64,000 nucleotides of DNA from Dehalococcoidia bacterium (GTDB lineage: Bacteria; Chloroflexota; Dehalococcoidia; Lucifugimonadales; UBA826): NCBI GenBank assembly GCA_029936675.1, contig JAPYSB010000009.1, positions 1-64,000 of the forward strand, given 5' to 3'. How positions within the stretch are numbered: the stretch's first letter is position 1; every line of letters starts with the position of its first letter. A program made the position numbers and the translations under genes. The notes under the pieces are model-generated. The model did not search any database. It had not been told where the DNA came from and saw nothing but the letters and a program-made list of their open reading frames with translations. Shown here piece by piece: positions 2,931 through 14,387 of the stretch.

Positions 2931-4571
2931 ATGAAAGCTATTAAAAAAGCCGTCACTAAATCAGTAAGAAAGATTGAGTTTGATTACGATGCCATTGTAA
3001 TAGGGGCCGGTATTTCTGGTCTCTATCAGTTGCTCAAATTAAGAGAAGCGGGATTAAATGTACGTGCCTTTGAGGCAGGTACCGGAGTCGGTGGCACCTG
3101 GTACTGGAACAGATATCCAGGAGCCAGGTTTGATTCAGAAAGTTATTCTTATGCGTATTCTTTCTCGCAAGAACTCTTGGATGAATGGAATTGGTCTGAA
3201 CATTTCGCCTCCCAACCTGAAATTCTCAGCTACTTACAATACGTAGCAGACAAATTTGATCTCTTAAAGGACATTCAATTTTCGAGTGACGTGAAGTCAG
3301 CCGTATATGATGAGCCCGCTAGAGGTTGGAAAATTACCCTAGGTGACGGTAAACAGTACAGAAGTAGATTTTTGATAGCGGGGGTAGGGTTACTATCCCA
3401 GCCAACAATGCCAAATATCGAAGGTATCGGTGATTTTGAAGGTCCTTCTTTCCATACCTCTCGCTGGCCCCATAGACCGGTAGATTTTGCTGGCAAAAAA
3501 GTAGCTATCATCGGAACCGGTGCGAGTGGTGTTCAGGCCATCCAAGAAATTTGCAAAAATGTCGGATATCTTACTGTGTTTCAAAGAAGGCCTAACTGGT
3601 GTGCCCCCCTGCATAACGCTGAAATTGATCCAGAAGAGATGAAGCGAATTAGATTGGGATACGATGAGATGTTTGACCGTTGTGACCAAACCCAGGCAGG
3701 ATTCCTCCACACTGTCGATCCAAGAGGTGCTTTCGAGGTCGCAGAAAAAGAACGATACGAATTTTGGGAACATCTTTATGCCAGCAAAGGTTTTGGGATT
3801 TGGCAGGGTAATTTCAAAGATGTTCTGAGTGAACTTAAGGCCAATGAGGCTATGTCAGGTTTTGTAGCAGATAAGATTCGGGATCGCGTGAATGATCAAG
3901 ATGTCGCAGAGAAATTGATCCCTAAAGATCATGGGTTTGGAACAAGGCGGGTCCCATTAGAGACTAACTATTATGAATCTTACAACCAAGAGAACGTTGA
4001 ACTGTTAGATATCAATGAAACTCCTATTCAGAGAATCACTCAAAAAGGAATATTGACCACAGAAAAGGAATTTGAGTTCGACCTCATAATATATGCCACA
4101 GGTTTCAACGCTATCCTTGGTAGCTATGACAGAATCGATATCAGAGGAATTGGTGGGCATAGCTTAAAGGAGCAATGGAATCAGGAATTATCCACCTTTC
4201 TCGGGCTCCAAATCAATAATTTCCCAAATCTTTTTATGATATTAGGCCCTCACGCACTCTTAGGAAACAATCCCCGTAGTATTGAATACAATGTCGAATG
4301 GATAACAGACCTAATTCAATATATGAGGGACCGAGGTTTGACTCGTGCAGAAGCTACCCTCGAGGCAGTTGAAAGTTGGTATGAATATGTATTAGAACAA
4401 GGGGAAGGTCTCTTATCCAACAAAGTGGATTCTTGGATGACTGGAGTTAACAGTAACCTGGAAGGTAGACAAACCAGAATCATCGCGAGGTACAGTGGCA
4501 GCCAAGCCTCCTACAGAAGTAGGTGTGATGGAGTTGCAACCAGCGGTTATAAAGAACTTAACCTAACTTAA
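2931..4571 (+). CDS. flavin-containing monooxygenase, Baeyer-Villiger type
   Basis: A 546-residue class B flavoprotein monooxygenase expected to use FAD, NADPH and O2 to insert oxygen next to a carbonyl. The first Rossmann motif GAGISG is at 25-30, followed by the GGTWYWNRYPGARFD block typical of cyclohexanone-monooxygenase relatives. The Baeyer-Villiger fingerprint FEGPSFHTSRWP runs from F169 to P180. The second nucleotide site GTGASG is at 195-200. The ATGFN motif precedes the C-terminal domain. ATG at 2931 has AGGAAC upstream. The aldolase and amidohydrolase genes follow on the same strand, suggesting a ring-opening catabolic unit. Such enzymes are numerous in SAR202 genomes. The substrate is unknown. 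Confidence 0.9.
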   Translation: MKAIKKAVTKSVRKIEFDYDAIVIGAGISGLYQLLKLREAGLNVRAFEAGTGVGGTWYWNRYPGARFDSESYSYAYSFSQELLDEWNWSEHFASQPEILSYLQYVADKFDLLKDIQFSSDVKSAVYDEPARGWKITLGDGKQYRSRFLIAGVGLLSQPTMPNIEGIGDFEGPSFHTSRWPHRPVDFAGKKVAIIGTGASGVQAIQEICKNVGYLTVFQRRPNWCAPLHNAEIDPEEMKRIRLGYDEMFDRCDQTQAGFLHTVDPRGAFEVAEKERYEFWEHLYASKGFGIWQGNFKDVLSELKANEAMSGFVADKIRDRVNDQDVAEKLIPKDHGFGTRRVPLETNYYESYNQENVELLDINETPIQRITQKGILTTEKEFEFDLIIYATGFNAILGSYDRIDIRGIGGHSLKEQWNQELSTFLGLQINNFPNLFMILGPHALLGNNPRSIEYNVEWITDLIQYMRDRGLTRAEATLEAVESWYEYVLEQGEGLLSNKVDSWMTGVNSNLEGRQTRIIARYSGSQASYRSRCDGVATSGYKELNLT

Positions 4572-4670
4572 TAAAACGGGAAATATCGCCCGGAACCTAT
4601 TATCCAAATCGGATTGAAAACACCATGTTTTAGTTCGATACCTTAAATGAGTTATTTGTAAGGAAGAACA

Positions 4671-5459
4671 ATGCAAAAAAACCTAACTAAAGAAAAACTC
4701 GAAAATGGGCTTCCCGTCTTCGGAGCCATAATCCATGAATACTCTCCGGGGGCCGTTGAGCTTTTTGGCGCTATTGGTTACGACTTCGTTATGATCGATT
4801 GTGAACACGGCTCTATGTCGGTTGATCAGGTCGAAAATATGGTGAGGGGAGCAGAGGTGTTTGGGATAACGCCTATTGCTCGTATTCCCAACCATGAGGA
4901 CTCCACAATTTTAAGGTTTCTAGACCGAGGTGTTCAGGGAATAATAATCCCCCATGTGAACACCCGGGCTCAGGCTGAAGCTGTGGCAAAGGCTGCAAGA
5001 TACCATCCTGAAGGCCATCGGGGGATAGGGGGTGGTAGGTCTCACGATTATGGTGTGAATATATCTAGGGACGAGTCGATAAAATTTGTAAATGAAAATA
5101 TTCTCGTTATCCCTATGATCGAAGAGGTGGAAGCGGTATCAAATGTGGAGGAAATTTGCTCAGTTAAAGGAGTCGATGTTTTGCATGTTGCCCCTGGCGA
5201 CCTTGGTCAAAGTATGAGTAATGCATCTCAGGCTGAAATAAGGGAGGTAATGGATAGGGTAGTTCCAAAAATACGAGCCGCTGGCAAATGGGTCGGAGTA
5301 GGAGGAAATTCCCCAAACGATATAAACAGGGTGTCTGATTTGATAGTAACCGGCGCAAACCTGATAACCATTGCATCCCATGGGCTGATGAAAAGTGGAG
5401 CTGAATCGTTCCGAAAATCAGTAGAAGGCCAGTTAAAAGAATCCTCACTCAATAATTAG
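4671..5459 (+). CDS. HpcH/HpaI family aldolase
   Basis: A 262-residue class II (metal-dependent) aldolase of the HpcH/HpaI family, which splits 2-keto-3-deoxy or 4-hydroxy-2-oxo acids to pyruvate plus an aldehyde. IDCEHG at 42-47 holds the catalytic His and acidic residues. ARIPN, a GVQGIIIPHV strand and the later IPMIEEVEA and HVAPGDL segments match the barrel's substrate and metal sites. ATG at 4671 is preceded by AAGGAAG. The amidohydrolase start follows 21 bases after the stop codon, so the two are probably co-transcribed. The exact substrate is not deducible. Confidence 0.9.
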   Translation: MQKNLTKEKLENGLPVFGAIIHEYSPGAVELFGAIGYDFVMIDCEHGSMSVDQVENMVRGAEVFGITPIARIPNHEDSTILRFLDRGVQGIIIPHVNTRAQAEAVAKAARYHPEGHRGIGGGRSHDYGVNISRDESIKFVNENILVIPMIEEVEAVSNVEEICSVKGVDVLHVAPGDLGQSMSNASQAEIREVMDRVVPKIRAAGKWVGVGGNSPNDINRVSDLIVTGANLITIASHGLMKSGAESFRKSVEGQLKESSLNN

Positions 5460-5480
5460 CTTTGTTTTGGAGGCTATCCG

Positions 5481-6857
5481 ATGAAATATTTGATTCGAGA
5501 TTCGACTGTTGTTACAGGAAGTTTAAATCGGCTGGTTCTCTATAAATCAGCTATTTTTATTCAAAATGGGATTATTCAAGATATCGGTGAAAGCCTTTTG
5601 CTTGAAAAACAATACCCTTCTGCAACAAGAATAGATGGAACAGGTAAAGTCATTTTCCCTGGCCTAATCAATTGCCATACGCATCTTTTAGCCACAGCTG
5701 ACAAAGGTATTTTGGAAGACTTCGGATTCCCCACAACTTTAAAGTTTCCAACAACTGGTCGCGGCTTGCTGGATCAAGACGAACGGAATGTGTTTGCAAG
5801 CCTGGCCTGTATCGAAGCAATTAAAAGTGGGACTACTACCTTGCTTGAGATATCAAATGATATTACAGAATATGCCCAAACTTTGGATTCGACCGGTCTA
5901 CGTGTTTTCCTAGGTGAGAACATGAATGACGTTGATGATTCTAAGTTACAAGAGGGTATATTCGAATATTCCTCCCATAAACGTGACACGGCTATCGGGA
6001 AGGCATCCGATTTATTCGATAATTGGGATGGTAAATCAAATGGCAGAATCAAAGGCTTTGTCGCTCCCCATGCTCCAGAGACCGTTTCCCCAGAGTTGTT
6101 GAGAGCTTCAAGAGATTTAGCTGAGAAATATAGACTTGGATATACGATTCATTTGTCCCAAAGCTATAAGGAAATTGAAGCTATTAAACGTATCAGAGGG
6201 GTTCTGCCAACGCATTATCTTTTCGCCAACGAGTTTTTGAGTGATCGCCTGGTTGCCGCTCATTGTAGGTATGTCGACAGCTCTGAGATGGCATTGCTGG
6301 GTCAAAAAAATGCCGGAATATCTCATAATGCTGCTATAGGCGCCCGCAGGGGGGCAGCGGCACCAATTGGCGAACTCTTATCGTCCGGCTGTTCGGTTGG
6401 TCTGGGATCCGACAACATGGCGGAAGACATGGTGGAGGTGATGAGGGCTGCTCTTTTTCATGAAAGGGTTCGGAGAAATGATGAGATGAATCCCCAACCT
6501 GAAGACGTACTAGAGTGGGGGACAATTGGTGGAGCTAGAACGCTGGGTATTGCTGATGAGTTGGGATCACTTGAGAAAGGTAAGAAGGCCGATCTATTTA
6601 TGATCGATTTTAGAAAAGCCCATTTAGTACCAACCCTCCGGATTGTTTCATCGTTTATTCACAATGGAATTTCTTCAGATGTGACAGATGTAATGGTCGA
6701 TGGAAAATGGGTAATGCAGGATTCTTCAATTAAAAGCATAAATGAAGCTAAGGTCATCGAACAAGCAGAAGAAATAGGACACCGAGTCTGGAACCAGTTA
6801 GTTAAAGAAAATCCCAACGTGCCATTCCCAATTAATTTACCGCCTGGCCCTCTGTAA
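5481..6857 (+). CDS. amidohydrolase, TRZ/ATZ (chlorohydrolase/deaminase) family
   Basis: A 458-residue metal-dependent hydrolase of the group containing S-adenosylhomocysteine/methylthioadenosine deaminase and atrazine chlorohydrolase. The metal ligands are visible: HTH at H66 and H68, H224 in HLSQS, H261 in AAHCRY, and D311 in GLGSDN. The N- and C-terminal strands (DSTVVTG; KADLFMIDF) form the small beta domain. ATG at 5481 follows GGAGG. The third gene after the monooxygenase and aldolase, it may remove an amino or amide group from a degradation intermediate. This role is inferred from position; the family also serves purine salvage. Confidence 0.87.
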   Translation: MKYLIRDSTVVTGSLNRLVLYKSAIFIQNGIIQDIGESLLLEKQYPSATRIDGTGKVIFPGLINCHTHLLATADKGILEDFGFPTTLKFPTTGRGLLDQDERNVFASLACIEAIKSGTTTLLEISNDITEYAQTLDSTGLRVFLGENMNDVDDSKLQEGIFEYSSHKRDTAIGKASDLFDNWDGKSNGRIKGFVAPHAPETVSPELLRASRDLAEKYRLGYTIHLSQSYKEIEAIKRIRGVLPTHYLFANEFLSDRLVAAHCRYVDSSEMALLGQKNAGISHNAAIGARRGAAAPIGELLSSGCSVGLGSDNMAEDMVEVMRAALFHERVRRNDEMNPQPEDVLEWGTIGGARTLGIADELGSLEKGKKADLFMIDFRKAHLVPTLRIVSSFIHNGISSDVTDVMVDGKWVMQDSSIKSINEAKVIEQAEEIGHRVWNQLVKENPNVPFPINLPPGPL

Positions 6858-6869
6858 CCTGGGGCAGAA

Positions 6870-7709
6870 TCATTGGAAGATATCTATCCCTTTGGCCGCC
6901 AAATTGGGCAAATGTATTCGTGTGCTCTGCTGATTAAAGGAATCTCCCTCAATATCTAGATATCGGAGATTTGGTAAAGAATTAATAGGACTTATATCCC
7001 TTATGTTATTAAATGCCAGGCCTAACCAATTTAGGGTAGTTATTTTTGACAAGGCGTCAATATTGGTGACTCGGTTGTGCCCGACATCTAGTGAGCCCAA
7101 GGATTTCAGGGTAGTGAGTGGGCTTAGATCTTGAATGTTGTTTCTAGAGGCGTGTATCCATGCCACTTCGTTAATAGAAGACAGTGGATCCAAATTAGAT
7201 ACCTCGTTACCTTCTATGTCCAAACTCTTTAATTGATCCAAACCGGAAATAGGATTTAAATCATCTATATTATTATCATTCAGATTTAAATCTGAAAGCA
7301 TTCCCAAGTTATTTAATGGCGAAAGGTCATCTAAATCACAATTTTTCAATCTCAGAGTTTTTAATTTCTTTAAGAGTGAAATATGTGATAAATCTGCTAT
7401 CTGTGAATCACTCACATCGAGCGTTCTTAGATTGTCTAAATGCTGAAGGGGGAAGAAGTTTTCTAGGTTAGCATTCCTTATTTTCAATGTATCCAGTAAA
7501 GGCAGCTCCGCCAGGGGAGATAAATCTATATCCCCTTCACAAATAACTACCAGATGAATAAGGCTAGATGTGAAGCGAAGATCCTCAAGATCTTCTTGAG
7601 ACGTCCGGTTTATCCGCAAAGAGGTCAATTTTGAGAGCTGGGTTGAAGTTATATCGCCCCTGTAGCCGCCCATTTTAGCTCGTACTGTCTTTTCAAAATG
7701 GTTGTTCAT
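6870..7709 (-). CDS. leucine-rich-repeat protein, internalin-like repeats
   Basis: A 279-residue protein made almost entirely of 22-residue leucine-rich repeats of the bacterial L..L..L.L..N.I.DL.PL type, about ten in number from residue 25 to the end. Residues 5-32 resemble the capping segment that precedes such arrays in other bacteria (VRAKMGGYRGDIT, then a helix and KLTSL). I see no signal peptide, transmembrane helix or sorting motif, so it may be cytoplasmic and act as a protein-binding scaffold. ATG at 7709. Its neighbours give no functional link, and convergence with the amidohydrolase leaves a 12-bp gap. Confidence 0.85.
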   Translation of the reverse strand: MNNHFEKTVRAKMGGYRGDITSTQLSKLTSLRINRTSQEDLEDLRFTSSLIHLVVICEGDIDLSPLAELPLLDTLKIRNANLENFFPLQHLDNLRTLDVSDSQIADLSHISLLKKLKTLRLKNCDLDDLSPLNNLGMLSDLNLNDNNIDDLNPISGLDQLKSLDIEGNEVSNLDPLSSINEVAWIHASRNNIQDLSPLTTLKSLGSLDVGHNRVTNIDALSKITTLNWLGLAFNNIRDISPINSLPNLRYLDIEGDSFNQQSTRIHLPNLAAKGIDIFQ

Positions 7710-8035
7710 TATTTTTTATTTGACACCCAGACGAAAACAAATTTAAGTTGCCCATTGAATTATATGGGAAACCTCCTGCTATGTGCTTATAAAAAAGAAA
7801 CCCTAAGTGTCAGTTTTTCTTTTCGAGTTCATGTTTTAACTTTGATTTCAAAAACCCAAATCGTTTCGCCGCTGGCCCAGATCCATCACAGGCAGCACCT
7901 TCAACGGGCCCAGGCCAAAGTGGTGTTCAAAAGGTTCAGCCATTGCTTCATTCCTTTGAGTTTTAATTTTCAAGATGATATAAATCGTTATTAACAAACA
8001 ATAAGGGAAATTTTCAAAATTAACGGAGGTGGATT
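7710..8035. other. 326-bp spacer between divergent genes
   Basis: The spacer separates the LRR gene (minus) from the CoA-transferase (plus). It is AT-rich except for a GC-rich patch at about 7865-7925, which coincides with a 31-codon minus-strand reading frame listed separately. The right end has GGAGGT at 8025-8030, the ribosome binding site of the CoA-transferase. No clear promoter hexamers or terminator could be fixed. Confidence 0.5.
7848..7943 (-). CDS. candidate 31-residue small protein
   Basis: An ATG at 7943 opens a 31-codon frame ending in TGA at 7848. AAAGGA lies eight bases before the ATG, a well-spaced ribosome binding site. The peptide begins MAEPFEHHFGLGPLK and is soluble with a basic C-terminal stretch. 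The frame sits in a patch markedly richer in G and C than its flanks. It lies 138 bp upstream of the LRR gene on the same strand. I recognise no homologue; it could be a real small protein, a gene fragment or chance. Confidence 0.3.
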   Translation of the reverse strand: MAEPFEHHFGLGPLKVLPVMDLGQRRNDLGF

Positions 8036-9289
8036 ATCAGCCACAACAGCCCCGAGTCGGAAGTTAATGGACCTCTTACAGGAATAAAAGTTTTAGACTG
8101 GACTATATGGCAGTTCGGACCGGTTAGTACCTCAATGATGGGAGACATGGGAGCAGACGTCATAAAAATTGAATCCTTAGACGGGGACCCATCGAGAGGC
8201 CTTTCCCGGGCATCTAGTCTGAAAATGGACCTCGGTGAAGGCAGAATCGCTTATTTTGAAACCTGCAATAGGAATAAGAGGAGCATTGCGGTTAATTTAA
8301 AAACTCCAGAAGGCCGGCAAGTTGTTTACGACCTTTGTAAGGATGCTGATGTATTTGTTCAAAATTTCAGGTCAGGCGTCGCTGAGAGACTTGGTTTAGG
8401 CTACGAAACCCTACGAGAAATAAATCCCCGATTAATTTACGGGTCTGCAAATGGGTATGGGCCACTTGGCCCCGACGCAGATCAACCATCCTTTGATGGC
8501 TGCGGGCAAGCCCGATCTGGCTTAATGATGTCGGCAACGAAGGCTGATCAAGATTATCCAACCCAGGTAACGCAAGGAGTATCTGATCAGATCGGAGGCA
8601 TTATGTTGTGCCAAGGCGTTTTGGCAGCTTTGGTGTCAAGGAGCATAAGAGGCACAGGTCAGAAGGTTGAAACCTCACATTTGAGTGCCAATATGTGGCT
8701 CCAAGGACTGGGGGTCACTATGAGCTTGTTACAAGGCGGGTTGGGGTTTTCCCCCTATAATCGTTATGAGCCAGTAAACCCTCTATCTAATGTTTATAAG
8801 ACCTCCGACGGACGTTTCATAATGATGATGCACCTGCAGCCAGATCAATACTGGGAACCTCTAATGGAAGCTATGAACCTTAGGGAGTTTATTGGCGACC
8901 CTAGATACTCAGACATGAGCAATAGATCAGATCACTCAGCAGAAGTTGTTGCCTTCCTCGATAAAAGGTTTGCCGAGAAAACTGCAGAGGAATGGGATTC
9001 TATATTCAGAAAGTTTTCTACAGATTTTATTTACTCTCTGGTACAAACAGTGCAGGACTTACCTTATGATCCTCAAGTGATTGCGAATGACTTTATCACC
9101 ACCTTTGACCACCCCGTACTTGGAGAGGTTCAAATGTGTAACCACCCGACAATATATAGTGACACACCGGCCGGTATTTGGAAGGAAGCCCCAGAAGTTG
9201 GTCAGCATACAGAGCAGGTCTTGGTGGATGAACTGGGATACGGTTGGGACGACATCAAGAAGCTGCAAAGCACCGGTACAATTTTGTAA
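8036..9289 (+). CDS. CaiB/BaiF family CoA-transferase
   Basis: A type III CoA-transferase that moves CoA between carboxylic acids. An ATG-initiated frame begins only at 8135, but family-typical sequence continues in frame upstream (PLTGIKVLDWTIWQFGPVST), so the protein starts earlier. The only start candidates near GGAGGT (8025-8030) are ATT at 8033 and ATC at 8036. I chose ATC at 8036 (5-nt spacer), giving 417 residues, normal for the family. The catalytic Asp is D154 in PSFDGCGQA. The gene heads a run with a TPP lyase (23-bp gap) and a MaoC-like protein, reminiscent of the formyl-CoA transferase/oxalyl-CoA decarboxylase pair. Confidence 0.88.
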   Translation: MSHNSPESEVNGPLTGIKVLDWTIWQFGPVSTSMMGDMGADVIKIESLDGDPSRGLSRASSLKMDLGEGRIAYFETCNRNKRSIAVNLKTPEGRQVVYDLCKDADVFVQNFRSGVAERLGLGYETLREINPRLIYGSANGYGPLGPDADQPSFDGCGQARSGLMMSATKADQDYPTQVTQGVSDQIGGIMLCQGVLAALVSRSIRGTGQKVETSHLSANMWLQGLGVTMSLLQGGLGFSPYNRYEPVNPLSNVYKTSDGRFIMMMHLQPDQYWEPLMEAMNLREFIGDPRYSDMSNRSDHSAEVVAFLDKRFAEKTAEEWDSIFRKFSTDFIYSLVQTVQDLPYDPQVIANDFITTFDHPVLGEVQMCNHPTIYSDTPAGIWKEAPEVGQHTEQVLVDELGYGWDDIKKLQSTGTIL

Positions 9290-9312
9290 CAATAAGTCAT
9301 GAGGGAGAAAAC

Positions 9313-10977
9313 ATGGGACAGATAGACGGCGGCCATTTATTTGCCAAAGCCCTGAAAAAAGAGGGAGTTGAGTATGTGTTTACCTTAAATGGTGGCCATA
9401 TTTACAACCTTTATGAAGGCTGCGCTGATGAAGGTATAGAGCTAATAGATTTCAGGCATGAACAAGTGGCGGCCCATGCAGCCGAAGGGTGGGCCAAGGT
9501 AACCGGTAAACCGGGGGTTTGCATAGTGACCGCCGGTCCAGGGGTAACTGATGCTGTCACCGGTATTGCTAACGCCTTCCAAGCACCTAGCCCCATGATA
9601 ATGGTTGGAGGTAACGCCGGGATATTTGACCATCTAAGAGGAGGTCTTCAGGATTTTGATAGTGCAACATTCTTGAAACCTGTAACTAAATTTTCAGAAC
9701 AAGTAAAAAGGGTGGAAAGAATTCCTGAATATGTGTCGAATGCATTTCGAGCTGCTACCAGCGGAATACCTGGGCCTGCCTATCTGGAAATTCCTATTGA
9801 CATCGTAAATGGTGTAACAGAAGAGGAAAATGTTAAGTATCCAGACAGGTACAGAACTGAATCAAGAGCTTTTGGAGACCCAGAATATATTCAAAAGATC
9901 GTAGACATTCTTAAAGATGCAGAACGCCCGATGGTTTTAGCCGGCTCTGATGTTTGGTGGTGTGACGCCTCCGAAGAATTAAGACAGTTTGTAGAAAAGA
10001 TCAACGCACCGGTTTTCTTAAATGCTATGGGTAGAGGAAGTCTCCACTCCAGCCACCCAAATTTGGGGAGTTTGGGAAGACGCTATGGACTTGTAAAATC
10101 AGACGCGGTTGTCTTAATTGGGACTCCAATTGATTTCAGACTTAGCTATGGTGAAGACCGACTCTTCCCTCAGAATCCCAAGTTAATAGAGATCATGATG
10201 GACGCAAATAAAATTGGTCAAAACAGGGCGGTAGATGTGGGGGTTGTAGGAGACGTCGGTGCCATTATGAACCAGATGATGGAATCTCTCGATGATTCTA
10301 GTTACCAATCGAAAGGCACGGCTTGGGTGGAAGAGGTTATGACGGAGGATAAGGCGTTAAAAGAAGCCGATACCGAAATGATGGCAAGTGATTCATCTCC
10401 TATACATCCTATGAGACTTGTTAAAGAATTAAGGGATGTTCTAGATGAAGATGCCACAGTCATTGGAGATGGTGGCGATATTGTCACTTTTGCTGCCAGG
10501 GTATTAAACATCAACAAGCCTGGACATTGGCTGGACCCAGGACAATTCGGGTGTTTGGGGGCAGGTAGTGGATTCGCTGCCGCGGCACAACTCGCCAGGC
10601 CCGGCAAACAGGTTTGCATCGTGTACGGGGATGGGGCATTTGGTTTGACAGGGTTTGATGTTGAATCCTTTGTCCGATTTAAGCTCCCAATCGTTTGTGT
10701 CCTTGGAAATAATGGTGCTTGGAATCAGACAACCCAGGGTGTTTTGGGAAGAGGAGGTAGAGCTTTGGCAACTTTCCTTTCTCAAGACACTGACTACGCC
10801 AAAATCATGGAAGGTATGGGAGGGCATTCTGAAAGGGTAACTGATCCCAACGAAATAAAACCAGCATTGGAAAGAGCATTTGCCTCAGGCAAGCCGGCTC
10901 TTTTAGATGTTGTCATTGACCCTAACATTTCCTATGGAAGCATGGGGGGGCGTTCAAGACAGCAAAGACAATATTAG
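9313..10977 (+). CDS. thiamine-diphosphate-dependent lyase/decarboxylase (acetolactate synthase / 2-hydroxyacyl-CoA lyase superfamily)
   Basis: A 554-residue enzyme with the three-domain architecture of the acetolactate synthase superfamily. The N-terminal pyrimidine-binding domain has the catalytic Glu E50 in FRHEQVAAHAAEGWA. A central domain follows, and the C-terminal domain has the TPP-Mg motif GDGAFG (from G439) through GNNGAWN. ATG at 9313 has GAGGGAG just upstream; a longer frame opening at 9244 overlaps the previous gene and is rejected. Between a CoA-transferase and a hotdog protein, the best guess is an oxalyl-CoA decarboxylase or 2-hydroxyacyl-CoA lyase relative; acetolactate synthase proper is less likely. 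Confidence 0.85.
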   Translation: MGQIDGGHLFAKALKKEGVEYVFTLNGGHIYNLYEGCADEGIELIDFRHEQVAAHAAEGWAKVTGKPGVCIVTAGPGVTDAVTGIANAFQAPSPMIMVGGNAGIFDHLRGGLQDFDSATFLKPVTKFSEQVKRVERIPEYVSNAFRAATSGIPGPAYLEIPIDIVNGVTEEENVKYPDRYRTESRAFGDPEYIQKIVDILKDAERPMVLAGSDVWWCDASEELRQFVEKINAPVFLNAMGRGSLHSSHPNLGSLGRRYGLVKSDAVVLIGTPIDFRLSYGEDRLFPQNPKLIEIMMDANKIGQNRAVDVGVVGDVGAIMNQMMESLDDSSYQSKGTAWVEEVMTEDKALKEADTEMMASDSSPIHPMRLVKELRDVLDEDATVIGDGGDIVTFAARVLNINKPGHWLDPGQFGCLGAGSGFAAAAQLARPGKQVCIVYGDGAFGLTGFDVESFVRFKLPIVCVLGNNGAWNQTTQGVLGRGGRALATFLSQDTDYAKIMEGMGGHSERVTDPNEIKPALERAFASGKPALLDVVIDPNISYGSMGGRSRQQRQY

Positions 10978-11005
10978 ATCTTATACTTAAAAAGGAGGGA
11001 CAAGA

Positions 11006-11872
11006 ATGACTTTGGAACAACACCAGCCAGATGAAGCATTTGTCGGTAAGGAGTTACAACCACGTTTATTTGAGATATCCGAAAAAAGCGTCGACGATTA
11101 CTTTGAGGGCTTGCGGGTCGATCGATCCATTTACGAAAACATCGCATTAGAAGACAAACTCATAACCCCATCCATGGTAATCATAGATGCGGAGTCTATT
11201 AAAGGGGCAAGTTTTAGAAATAATTTTGGAAACCTGTGGATGCGTCAAGAAGTTGATTTCCATGCACCTCTGCCGGCAGAGGCAAAATTAAACGTCCGTT
11301 CCAAGGTGTTGGATATTTATGAGTGGAGAAACAGGACTGTAGTACTGCAGGAATCTGAAATATTTAACGAGAAAGATGAATTATTGGGTGCGATGCGTCA
11401 CCACCAAAGCTATTTACTAGAACAAAATTCAGGGAAGGTCACCCTAAGAAAACCGTCTGAAAAAGAAGGCGTTAGAAAATTTGATGTCCCAAAGGGAGAA
11501 TCCTTAAAACCAGTATCGAGTCAAATAGACCTTGAGATGTGCGGAACTTTTTTCCATGGAAATAAGAGTTACCACACTGACAAAAGAGCATCTGAAGAAC
11601 TGGGATTTGAAGAAGTAGTAGTCGGAGGTAAAATGACGATCTCCTATATTGGAGATATGCTTGATAGAGCGTTTGGGGACCGGTGGTATAGTGGCGGTAA
11701 GCTGGACGTTAAATTTACAAACATCGTATGGCCTGGAGACAAAGTGACGGCAAAAGGTGTAATTGCCGACGAATCCAATTCCTCTGAAGGTACCACCGAG
11801 ATAAGAGTTTGGATGGAAAAGGAAGACGGAACCGTAACTATTGTTGGGAATGCATATCTTCCAGAAGATTAG
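11006..11872 (+). CDS. MaoC-like (hotdog-fold) dehydratase domain protein
   Basis: A 288-residue protein that reads as two hotdog-fold halves, as in double-hotdog MaoC-like hydratases and thioesterases acting on acyl-CoA. The N-terminal half has the NLWMRQEVDFHAPLPAEAKL strand pair. The C-terminal half has a KMTISYIGDMLDRAFGD helix and a LDVKFTNIVWPGDKVTAKG strand, typical of the second repeat. AAGGAGGG precedes ATG at 11006. It is the third gene of the CoA-transferase/TPP-lyase run and probably hydrates or dehydrates the acyl-CoA handled there. The exact reaction is not deducible. Confidence 0.78.
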   Translation: MTLEQHQPDEAFVGKELQPRLFEISEKSVDDYFEGLRVDRSIYENIALEDKLITPSMVIIDAESIKGASFRNNFGNLWMRQEVDFHAPLPAEAKLNVRSKVLDIYEWRNRTVVLQESEIFNEKDELLGAMRHHQSYLLEQNSGKVTLRKPSEKEGVRKFDVPKGESLKPVSSQIDLEMCGTFFHGNKSYHTDKRASEELGFEEVVVGGKMTISYIGDMLDRAFGDRWYSGGKLDVKFTNIVWPGDKVTAKGVIADESNSSEGTTEIRVWMEKEDGTVTIVGNAYLPED

Positions 11873-12305: not shown

Positions 12306-12894
12306 TTATGAAGGGGCTTCCCAAGTGGAAGTGTCTACGAAGTTTATAAAGCTGGCAACAATGTTGATTAATCCAATTACAGCAACGATGTAGGCTAATA
12401 TTTTTTGCACCCCGTTCCGATTAGAGGACACAGCTAAGGCAATCAAGGTGAACCCGATTGAAAAAATCAGCCCTGTATACGACTGGGTAGCCCCGCCAAT
12501 GGGATTGATTGTATATTGATATCCTGTCGGCAGGCCTGAAAGGCCGTCGAATTGTGTCGCGCTATTCAGGCTTGTGCTTAAAACAATACCTAGAATTCCA
12601 AAAAAAACACCCATAGAACCTAAACGAAACAATGCCTCGTTTTGTCCATTCTTTTTGATGTCGTTCCCCAGAGCATTTAATCCATACAGGAAAAATATTA
12701 ATGAAATACCCGGTAAAAGTCCTAGGAAATGGGCTAGGGAAGATTGTTTATCAAAGGTAGCCTCAAAATTTCTCGGGTCTCCTGATCCTGTGGTACCAAG
12801 GACCATAAAAACCACTAAAAAAAACAAGAGCGGCGAAACCTGGATCCACTAAAAGACCCAGTCCTCCCAATTTGTTAGCAGATATACTACCCAT
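12306..12894 (-). CDS. integral membrane protein interrupted by a T8 frameshift
   Basis: Translation should begin at ATG 12894 (AAGGAGTA upstream on the minus strand) and gives MGSISANKLGGLGLLVDPGF, then ALVFF. At a run of eight T's (12817-12824) the frame goes off; removing one T joins it exactly to a 173-residue open frame ending at 12306. The joined protein is 195 residues with about five hydrophobic segments and no recognised family. Either the T-run is a sequencing or assembly error, RNA polymerase slips there, or this copy is a fresh pseudogene. The frame beginning at TTG 12827 has no good ribosome site and starts inside the first membrane helix. Confidence 0.65.
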
Positions 12895-13079: not shown

Positions 13080-14279
13080 CTATCTGGCAATACCGAAAGC
13101 TACGGCTTTAATTTCCTTGTCCTCAGAATCATTCATGACTTCAGCAAGTTCGCCCAATAGGTCGCTCAAGGCAGTTTCAGACCAAAGCCAGCGGTACAAT
13201 TCATTCATAGATGCTTTAGGATCCACTGCAATCCTGGATTCTAGATAGTATGATTTTAAGTCGTCAACACAATACCGTATGAAGTGCGCAATACTGAATT
13301 GTTCAGGGCGTATTTCAGAGTCATGGGTCTTGCCTTCTATAAATTCTTTCAAAAATTCTACGACGGCAGGGAATTGATCAATTCCAATGTTACTCAATCC
13401 CACGGCAGTTCTACCTTTGTTCATTCCCAACCACTTTTCATAATTGGCTTTTATATTCGCCAGCTCTACGAAGGTATCTTCCTTTTTCTTGGAAACTGCG
13501 GCTGTTTTTACCTCTGAACGAGATAAAACCACTCTTTCTATCTCATCAGTCTCGAAAATTTCCAGGACTGGGCCTTCTGGTCTATCTAGCAGATCAAAGG
13601 TCGCTTCTAGTATTTCATGCTGAAAGCTTGGGTTATTTACTTCCCCTAGAGTGTTCCCAAAGTTGAATGGAACTGACAATATACGAGGTGGTTTTATCTT
13701 TCTTGCATGTTCTTCCACCAGGGCAATGCCAGTACTGACTAATCCAGCTTCTTCCAAGACCCGCGCGATAACGCTTACAGCGTTGGTACAGGCCGGTCAA
13801 GTAGGAGTTAGTAGCACTACATCAACTTGCTCATCCAACAAACTCTTGGCTACCTCAGGGCCATACTCGTCAATTAACCCAGAAATGTTTCTTAAAGCTC
13901 CCATGAAGGAATAGTAGTTATCAGAAAGTGACCCGATTTTTCCCAGTGCCACGAGTTCATTAAGCCTGTCAATTGGGAAGGTGATGTTAATGTCTTTGTA
14001 GATGCTAGTACGATCAAAACCTATACTCGTGTGGCTTTGAACAATATCCGCTGGGTCAGTAACCCTAGGTATCACACGAAAAGAAGCATCCCCACCGTTT
14101 TTCGCTGTGGTGAAAGGTTTATCCCCTCTAACATGGAGCCCGGCAGTGGTTACTAAAGCAACTTTACATTCTGACAAAGGTTTGATCATCGGGGTCCAGG
14201 GAGAATCTTCATTTTCCGGACTTGGCCAGTTAAGAAGCATTTCCCTTTGCGGTTCGCTTAATATTTCAAGTTTCGGCAT
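13080..14279 (-). CDS. GrdB-family (glycine/sarcosine/betaine reductase B-like) selenoprotein with in-frame TGA as Sec
   Basis: Two minus-strand open segments in the same frame are separated only by a TGA at 13797-13799. Reading TGA as selenocysteine gives one 399-residue protein related to selenoprotein B of glycine/betaine/D-proline reductases. The junction reads VDVVLLTPT-U-PACTNAVSV, a redox UxxC motif (Sec161, Cys164), and family features continue on both sides. A SECIS-like hairpin follows at the right distance. In classical reductases GrdB binds the substrate amine. Here no GrdA, GrdC or thioredoxin gene is nearby, so the protein may be a stand-alone thiol/selenol oxidoreductase. ATG at 14279. 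The next genes upstream on the same strand are a flavoprotein and an acylase. Confidence 0.85.
13770..13799 (-). promoter_or_regulatory. bacterial SECIS-like element after the Sec TGA
   Basis: In the mRNA sense, TGA (13799-13797) is followed 12 nt later by AACGCT-GTA-AGCGTT (13784-13770), a perfect 6-bp stem with a 3-nt loop. The loop begins with G and lies 18 nt after the TGA. A G among the first two loop bases and a spacing in the high teens are the known requirements for SelB recognition in bacterial SECIS elements. Lower pairing (GACC with GGTC) can extend the stem. Confidence 0.75.
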
Positions 14280-14387
14280 TAATTTACCTTTTTAATTTTG
14301 TGGTTTGATTTCCTGGCATATCCGAATTCGGGAAAGCTGAACCCTCAGTATAATAGGCAAAAGTGTAAACTTGAAGGAGTAGTAGCT

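Follow-up and report, generated by a model that had tools for sequence, protein, structure and literature searches.

In the clostridia, selenium enzymes of the GrdB/PrdB type degrade glycine and proline during anaerobic amino-acid fermentation. In the known enzymes, the amine is activated by a carbonyl group carried on a partner, GrdE or PrdA. As proposed for the superfamily, the Sec selenolate attacks the carbon beside the activated amine, NH3 leaves, and a thiolate then cleaves the selenoether to give a selenenylsulfide, which is reduced by a dithiol (PMC10298544). For FarB, a relative of GrdB, attack on the C-F bond of fluoroacetate has been proposed, where no Schiff base is possible (PMC10838667). 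Marine selenoproteins of the PrdB type with a UxxC motif have been known since 2005; in the Sargasso Sea they ranked third in abundance among known families, with 42 Sec forms and one Cys form (PMC1088965), and the GOS data gave 235 Sec and 110 Cys forms (PMC2398784). One paper that mentions both SAR202 and selenocysteine notes SelA and SelB in sponge symbionts, and among open-access full texts nothing was found joining SAR202 and a selenoprotein, a weak negative given that scope.

Here we describe a gene related to these families, encoded in a 64-kb stretch of DNA (referred to as the window; coordinates without a locus name are positions in it). The source genome, in which the window corresponds to contig C44, is a draft of 2.19 Mb in 53 contigs, 96.5% complete, and its named relatives are SAR202-cluster Chloroflexota MAGs; the host is a deep-ocean SAR202 bacterium (Chloroflexota). 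With two COX1 genes, it has at least the equipment to respire aerobically, in keeping with the aerobic-type genome suggested in a preliminary description of this DNA. The features of the locus are as follows.

13080..14279, minus strand: selenoprotein gene, long-form GrdB/PrdB-like (ATG 14277-14279, stop 13080-13082; 399 aa, one Sec)
13797..13799, minus strand: in-frame TGA, read as Sec161 in the motif TPT-U-PAC-T from the sequence and the sel machinery in the genome
13788..13790, minus strand: codon for Cys164, presumed to act as resolving thiol in the U-x-x-C pair and without variation across the 45-member long-form alignment
14287..14290, minus strand: AAGG, a weak candidate ribosome-binding site 7 nt 5' of the ATG, proposed from the sequence
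13762..13792, minus strand: predicted SECIS stem-loop directly 3' of the UGA (core 6-bp stem 13770-13784, apical G-U-A)
13533..14183, minus strand: N-terminal alpha/beta domain of Rossmann-like type, covering residues 33-249 and sharing homology with PrdB and with the C-terminal portion of GrdB
13083..13532, minus strand: C-terminal all-helical domain, residues 250-399, seen solely fused to the selenoprotein domain

The gene spans 400 codons, and its single interruption is the TGA at 13797-13799. Read through, the frame encodes 399 residues (160 + U + 238, both parts in the same frame), with VVLLTPT-U-PACTNAVSV around Sec161. The preliminary description had joined two same-frame minus-strand segments across a lone TGA into a protein with a TPT-U-PACT motif, and this reading of the ORFs, coordinates included, was correct. 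Ordinary annotation gives two ORFs for the frame, as if the TGA were a sequencing error, the gene a pseudogene, or the downstream half a separate gene starting from the TTG at 13757. Such accounts are barely credible. The identical TGA recurs in a paralogue and across dozens of genomes that were assembled independently, and this, like the covariation in the SECIS stem described below, speaks against an error or a pseudogene. Against three orthologues, pN/pS is 0.14/0.07/0.11 before the TGA and 0.20/0.18/0.16 after it; these ratios point to purifying selection on both halves of the gene, at odds with a pseudogene or a split gene. The downstream half, moreover, was never found with another N-terminus, which argues against its being a gene of its own.

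Matches to the selenoprotein occur in 52 of the 118 genomes of the order, with TGA in all among the matches listed, and in 94 of 400 genomes of the phylum, with TGA in most. Direct reading of the homologous codon gives TGA for every long form and for nearly all members of a short form (about 240-290 aa) that lacks the C-terminal helical domain and occurs widely across the phylum. The alignment of 45 long forms shows no variation at Sec161 or Cys164, and in distant homologues U aligns with Cys, the pairing that the preliminary description had proposed to look for. Two short forms of family f81 (L128 and L129, genomes G419 and G458) encode Cys (TGT/TGC) at the Sec position and lack a SECIS stem; with the UGA members they make a natural Sec/Cys pair for comparison. 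The source genome holds a second long-form UGA paralogue, 59% identical, with TGA at the equivalent site. This paralogue lies at G000:C49:55638-56831 (L094 8639-9835, L002) in an unrelated neighbourhood. Elsewhere in the class, one locus (L115, G505:C27; 7380-12327, minus strand) contains three long-form UGA genes in tandem. No relative was found in the viral contigs searched, and no match in the anti-phage defence library searched.

The sel genes that the preliminary description would have had searched for, selA, selB, selC (tRNA-Sec) and selD, are all found in the source genome. SelA scores 529.8 bits, SelB 351 and SelD 384, each above its curated cut-off, and the tRNA-Sec reaches 65.5 bits, where the cut-off is 47, and is called by ARAGORN as tRNA-SeC with anticodon TCA (UCA). 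The SelD of this genome (L143, G000:C10:144035-144958, minus strand) is itself a selenoprotein, with UGA in CAGUASK. Across the source genome and its relatives, tRNA-Sec is above cut-off in 20 of 21 genomes; the exception, the same-genus draft G005 (88% complete), has the UGA gene and no tRNA-Sec above the Rfam cut-off, probably because sequence is missing. SelA, SelB, SelD and tRNA-Sec would decode the UGA as Sec, directed by the hairpin immediately 3' of it. An inserted residue cannot be shown from sequence alone, and a non-Sec amino acid, supplied through a change of code or general read-through, might be supposed instead. Nevertheless, a tRNA-Sec with anticodon UCA is encoded together with selA, selB and selD, distant members (L128, L129) carry Cys (TGT/TGC) rather than Trp or Gly at this position, and among the members examined the SECIS is confined to those with UGA, all of which makes such decoding improbable in the extreme. 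The UGA at 13797-13799 is thus almost certainly read as Sec, judging from the gene and the machinery encoded with it.

The RNA 3' of the UGA can pair as AACGCU-GUA-AGCGUU, which places the apical loop 18 nt past the UGA, and the stem register is identical in 75 distinct UGA sequences. Since the single-sequence MFE z-score of -1.4 was not decisive, covariation was used. In the 75 sequences, 92.9% of core-stem cells are paired, as against 28-41% in six slid registers (one arm moved 1-3 bases); shuffling the columns gives a mean of 68% and a maximum of 74%, with none of 1000 shuffles reaching 92.9%. Further pair types number 16, versus 7-8 in the slid registers. The stem is kept even though long and short forms differ in their residues (N/H/Q/R, A/T/S, V/G, S/G/C and V/L). 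The cleanest covariation signal comes from synonymous third bases: where an AGY (Ser) codon stands at +24, its third base is C facing G (17 sequences) or U facing A (11), complementary in 28 of 28 (Fisher p = 5e-8, a value that does not remove relatedness). Pair 18/26 has undergone at least 15 changes on the tree and co-changes in 5 of 5 independent tip pairs, a number too small to give 0.05 in a sign test, and pair 15/29 has too few events in the independent-pair test. Both Cys homologues examined (n=2) are without the stem. In the 64-kb window, a hairpin in the same register is found at 3 of 2452 TGA sites, and of these three the TGA at 13797-13799 alone has open frames of more than 150 codons on both sides. 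Together, the comparisons point to a SECIS with G/U in the apical loop and compensatory changes at synonymous positions.

The preliminary description took the protein for a full-length member of the GrdB family. The Pfam GRDB model (PF07355) does match, at 49.8 bits against a gathering score of 22, but the best match is to PrdB (TIGR04483), which at 160 bits misses the equivalog cut-off of 300; the NCBIfam models score 64 bits for GrdF, 57 for GrdH and 49.5 for GrdB. Equivalog scores for TIGR01917, NF040794 and NF040795 (49-64 bits) fall short of cut-offs of 602-800. Residues ~250-399 form a domain absent from both PrdB and GrdB. All 45 long forms match PF07355, and their Pfam and NCBIfam scores are alike. 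That the selenoprotein belongs to the GrdB/PrdB superfamily we regard as virtually certain, and by these scores it is nearer to PrdB than to GrdB. PrdB (D-proline reductase) is the top-scoring described family, covering the whole N-terminal domain with a similar shared-domain length and the same U-x-x-C motif; unlike PrdB, however, the selenoprotein is under the equivalog cut-off, carries 150 extra C-terminal residues in a helical domain, comes from a genome without a PF09338-type partner, and belongs to a host with aerobic terminal oxidases.

The comparison with GrdB, GrdF and GrdH (glycine, sarcosine and betaine reductase; PF07355) is similar in kind. Besides the score above the Pfam gathering threshold, seven residues (H83, D89, D96, P102, G127, U161 and R199) are common to the selenoprotein and the true GrdB of the same order (L105). 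In contrast, the N-terminal half of GrdB, some 200 residues, is missing from the selenoprotein, whose UPACTNA keeps only the second Cys of UxxCxxC and not the third; its genome has neither GrdA nor GrdE. The GrdB of L105 reads UGTSTRS, with Ser at the expected motif cysteines. An AlphaFold2 model built with the 45-row alignment (pLDDT 89.6, pTM 0.90) places Sec161 after a central strand (154-158), at the N-terminus of helix 162-177. Foldseek searches of the model against PDB and BFVD gave E > 0.001 throughout, and a sequence search against solved structures returned no relevant match. As candidate relatives of the N-terminal domain, microcystinase C (7ylq; VIA-align Z 8.0, rmsd 4.0, 157 aligned) and an ABC-type binding protein (4p98; Z 8.0, rmsd 3.5, 131 aligned) were set aside as background-level matches. 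The structural matches listed, all at that level, include no thioredoxin.

The helical domain of ~150 residues, folded alone, is predicted with a pLDDT of 92.7, and sequence comparison with Pfam, NCBIfam and PDB gave no match for it. Cohesin SA2, its top structural candidate (VIA-align Z 5.7, rmsd 4.3, 87 aligned), was again at background level. Searched against the 118 genomes, a profile of the domain picks up nothing beyond the C-terminal parts of these selenoproteins and a single fragment of 31 residues, which ties the extra domain to the selenoprotein.

The preliminary description called the gene stand-alone from its surroundings, and this extends genome-wide: GrdA (PF04723) and the GrdE type (PF09338) are absent from the whole source genome, and from the genus and family members searched. 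That such searches work is indicated by other genomes of the order, where PF04723 occurs in 8 of 118 and PF09338 in 10 of 118. The PrdA model TIGR04480 gave no match in the source genome, but none in controls either. The selenoprotein gene is present in 4 of the 8 genomes with GrdA and in 48 of the 110 without (Fisher p = 0.73), so the selenoprotein is very probably independent of glycine reductase. In genome G015 (locus L105, G015:C1:1206700-1223900, about 2969-9176), a long-form homologue lies 48 nt 5' of grdC-grdA-grdE-grdB; standing beside a full grd cluster, it makes a functional link possible in some lineages. As a general guide to function this link was rejected, being a single case with no association across the 118 genomes.

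These data also bear on whether the protein is simply the GrdB/PrdB subunit that binds the substrate in a classical reductase of glycine, sarcosine or proline, its partners having been missed in an incomplete assembly. The GRDB match above cut-off, the G015 homologue followed by grdC, grdA, grdE and grdB, and the draft state of the source genome (96% complete, 53 contigs) fit such a subunit, yet GrdA and GrdE-type genes are absent from the source genome and from all genus and family members searched, its frequency in the 118 genomes is the same whether GrdA is present or not, and its scores fall far short of the equivalog cut-offs. We therefore regard a classical subunit as very unlikely.

Operon context was discarded as a functional guide, as the neighbours of long and short forms alike are not conserved beyond the genus. 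Within the genus, a penicillin acylase and an HI0933 flavoprotein are conserved upstream, and a protein of 173 aa that has hydrophobic stretches and matches nothing in Pfam (window 12306-12827, minus strand) is conserved downstream. Consecutive genes for a CoA-transferase of family III, a TPP enzyme and a MaoC-like protein (window 8135-11872, plus strand) resemble a cluster of the oxalate or formyl-/oxalyl-CoA type. A zinc-type alcohol dehydrogenase found near L099, L101, L102, L104, L128 and L133 varies in strand and distance and was judged too weak a lead; these neighbours span long and short forms from different lineages.

The lack of a GrdE/PrdA-type partner counts against a simple reuse of GrdB/PrdB chemistry. 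Sec, the resolving Cys and the GrdB residues are kept and no carbonyl-bearing partner was found, which favours a stand-alone reductase for a molecule that is already electrophilic. A Sec-decoded, stand-alone selenolate/thiol reductase of the GrdB/PrdB superfamily is accordingly the explanation we put forward as a whole, with moderate confidence. The Sec161 selenolate would act as nucleophile on a small electrophilic substrate, the bond attacked being C-N, C-X or one to a heteroatom. Resolution of the Se adduct by Cys164 would leave a selenenylsulfide, which a dithiol of the cell, of the thioredoxin or lipoyl type, would reduce again. The helical C-terminal domain would replace the missing partner subunits, in active-site closure or oligomerisation. 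From the comparisons above we infer how the redox cycle runs, what class of substrate is used and what the extra domain does, and adduct-type chemistry at Sec161, taken by itself, is close to an even call, if slightly below one. FarB offers a partial parallel: it too is a GrdB relative with a divergent Cys pattern and a proposed selenolate attack on an electrophilic carbon, although its operon also encodes a transporter, a radical-SAM protein and its partner FarE, and its host is anaerobic (monofluoroacetate reduction; PMC10838667).

The main rival explanation holds that the same selenoprotein is an ordinary thioredoxin-like UxxC redox or repair enzyme, acting on a disulfide, peroxide or sulfoxide with no carbon-selenium adduct. 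The U-P-x-C at the N-terminus of a helix that follows a strand would suit such an enzyme, as would weak similarity to Thioredoxin_3 and PDO_seleno_TRX around the U-x-x-C motif and the benefit of antioxidant selenoproteins to an aerobic host with two COX1 genes. The thioredoxin scores are nevertheless under their cut-offs (Thioredoxin_3 in Pfam: 16.7 bits against 24.8) and the whole domain is GrdB/PrdB-like. Furthermore, H83, D89, D96 and P102, conserved and common with true GrdB, are kept besides U-x-x-C, and a plain thioredoxin-like centre needs none of them. We consider a thioredoxin-like enzyme a tentative but serious possibility. More specific than the stand-alone reductase, and rather unlikely in that exact form, is a partner-free descendant of the reductases in one polypeptide, cleaving C-N, C-halogen or similar bonds reductively with its selenolate and having the helical domain in place of the pyruvoyl subunit. 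If true, a protein derived from the selenoproteins of glycine/proline reductase would be carrying out such cleavage in aerobic deep-ocean bacteria.

PrdB-like UxxC selenoproteins are already documented as an abundant marine family, so the Sec protein itself is of a known kind and its novelty is lowered accordingly. The marine PrdB selenoproteins share with it the U-x-x-C motif, PF07355 and abundant Sec forms in seawater, and they probably include the present family; they differ in being environmental reads, and the sections devoted to them do not describe partner loss, a long form or SAR202 (PMC1088965, PMC2398784). The new part is the variant: a partnerless long form with a ~150-residue helical C-terminal domain, of which we found no description. 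Thus a GrdB/PrdB Sec subunit has been kept, and sometimes duplicated, in SAR202 bacteria that have terminal oxidases and lack the other subunits, and selection in SAR202 for Sec over Cys is strong. This may help explain why PrdB is among the commonest selenoprotein families in seawater, though proline reductase is an enzyme of fermentation. The long form is a defined, expressible target, which makes the function of the new domain testable.
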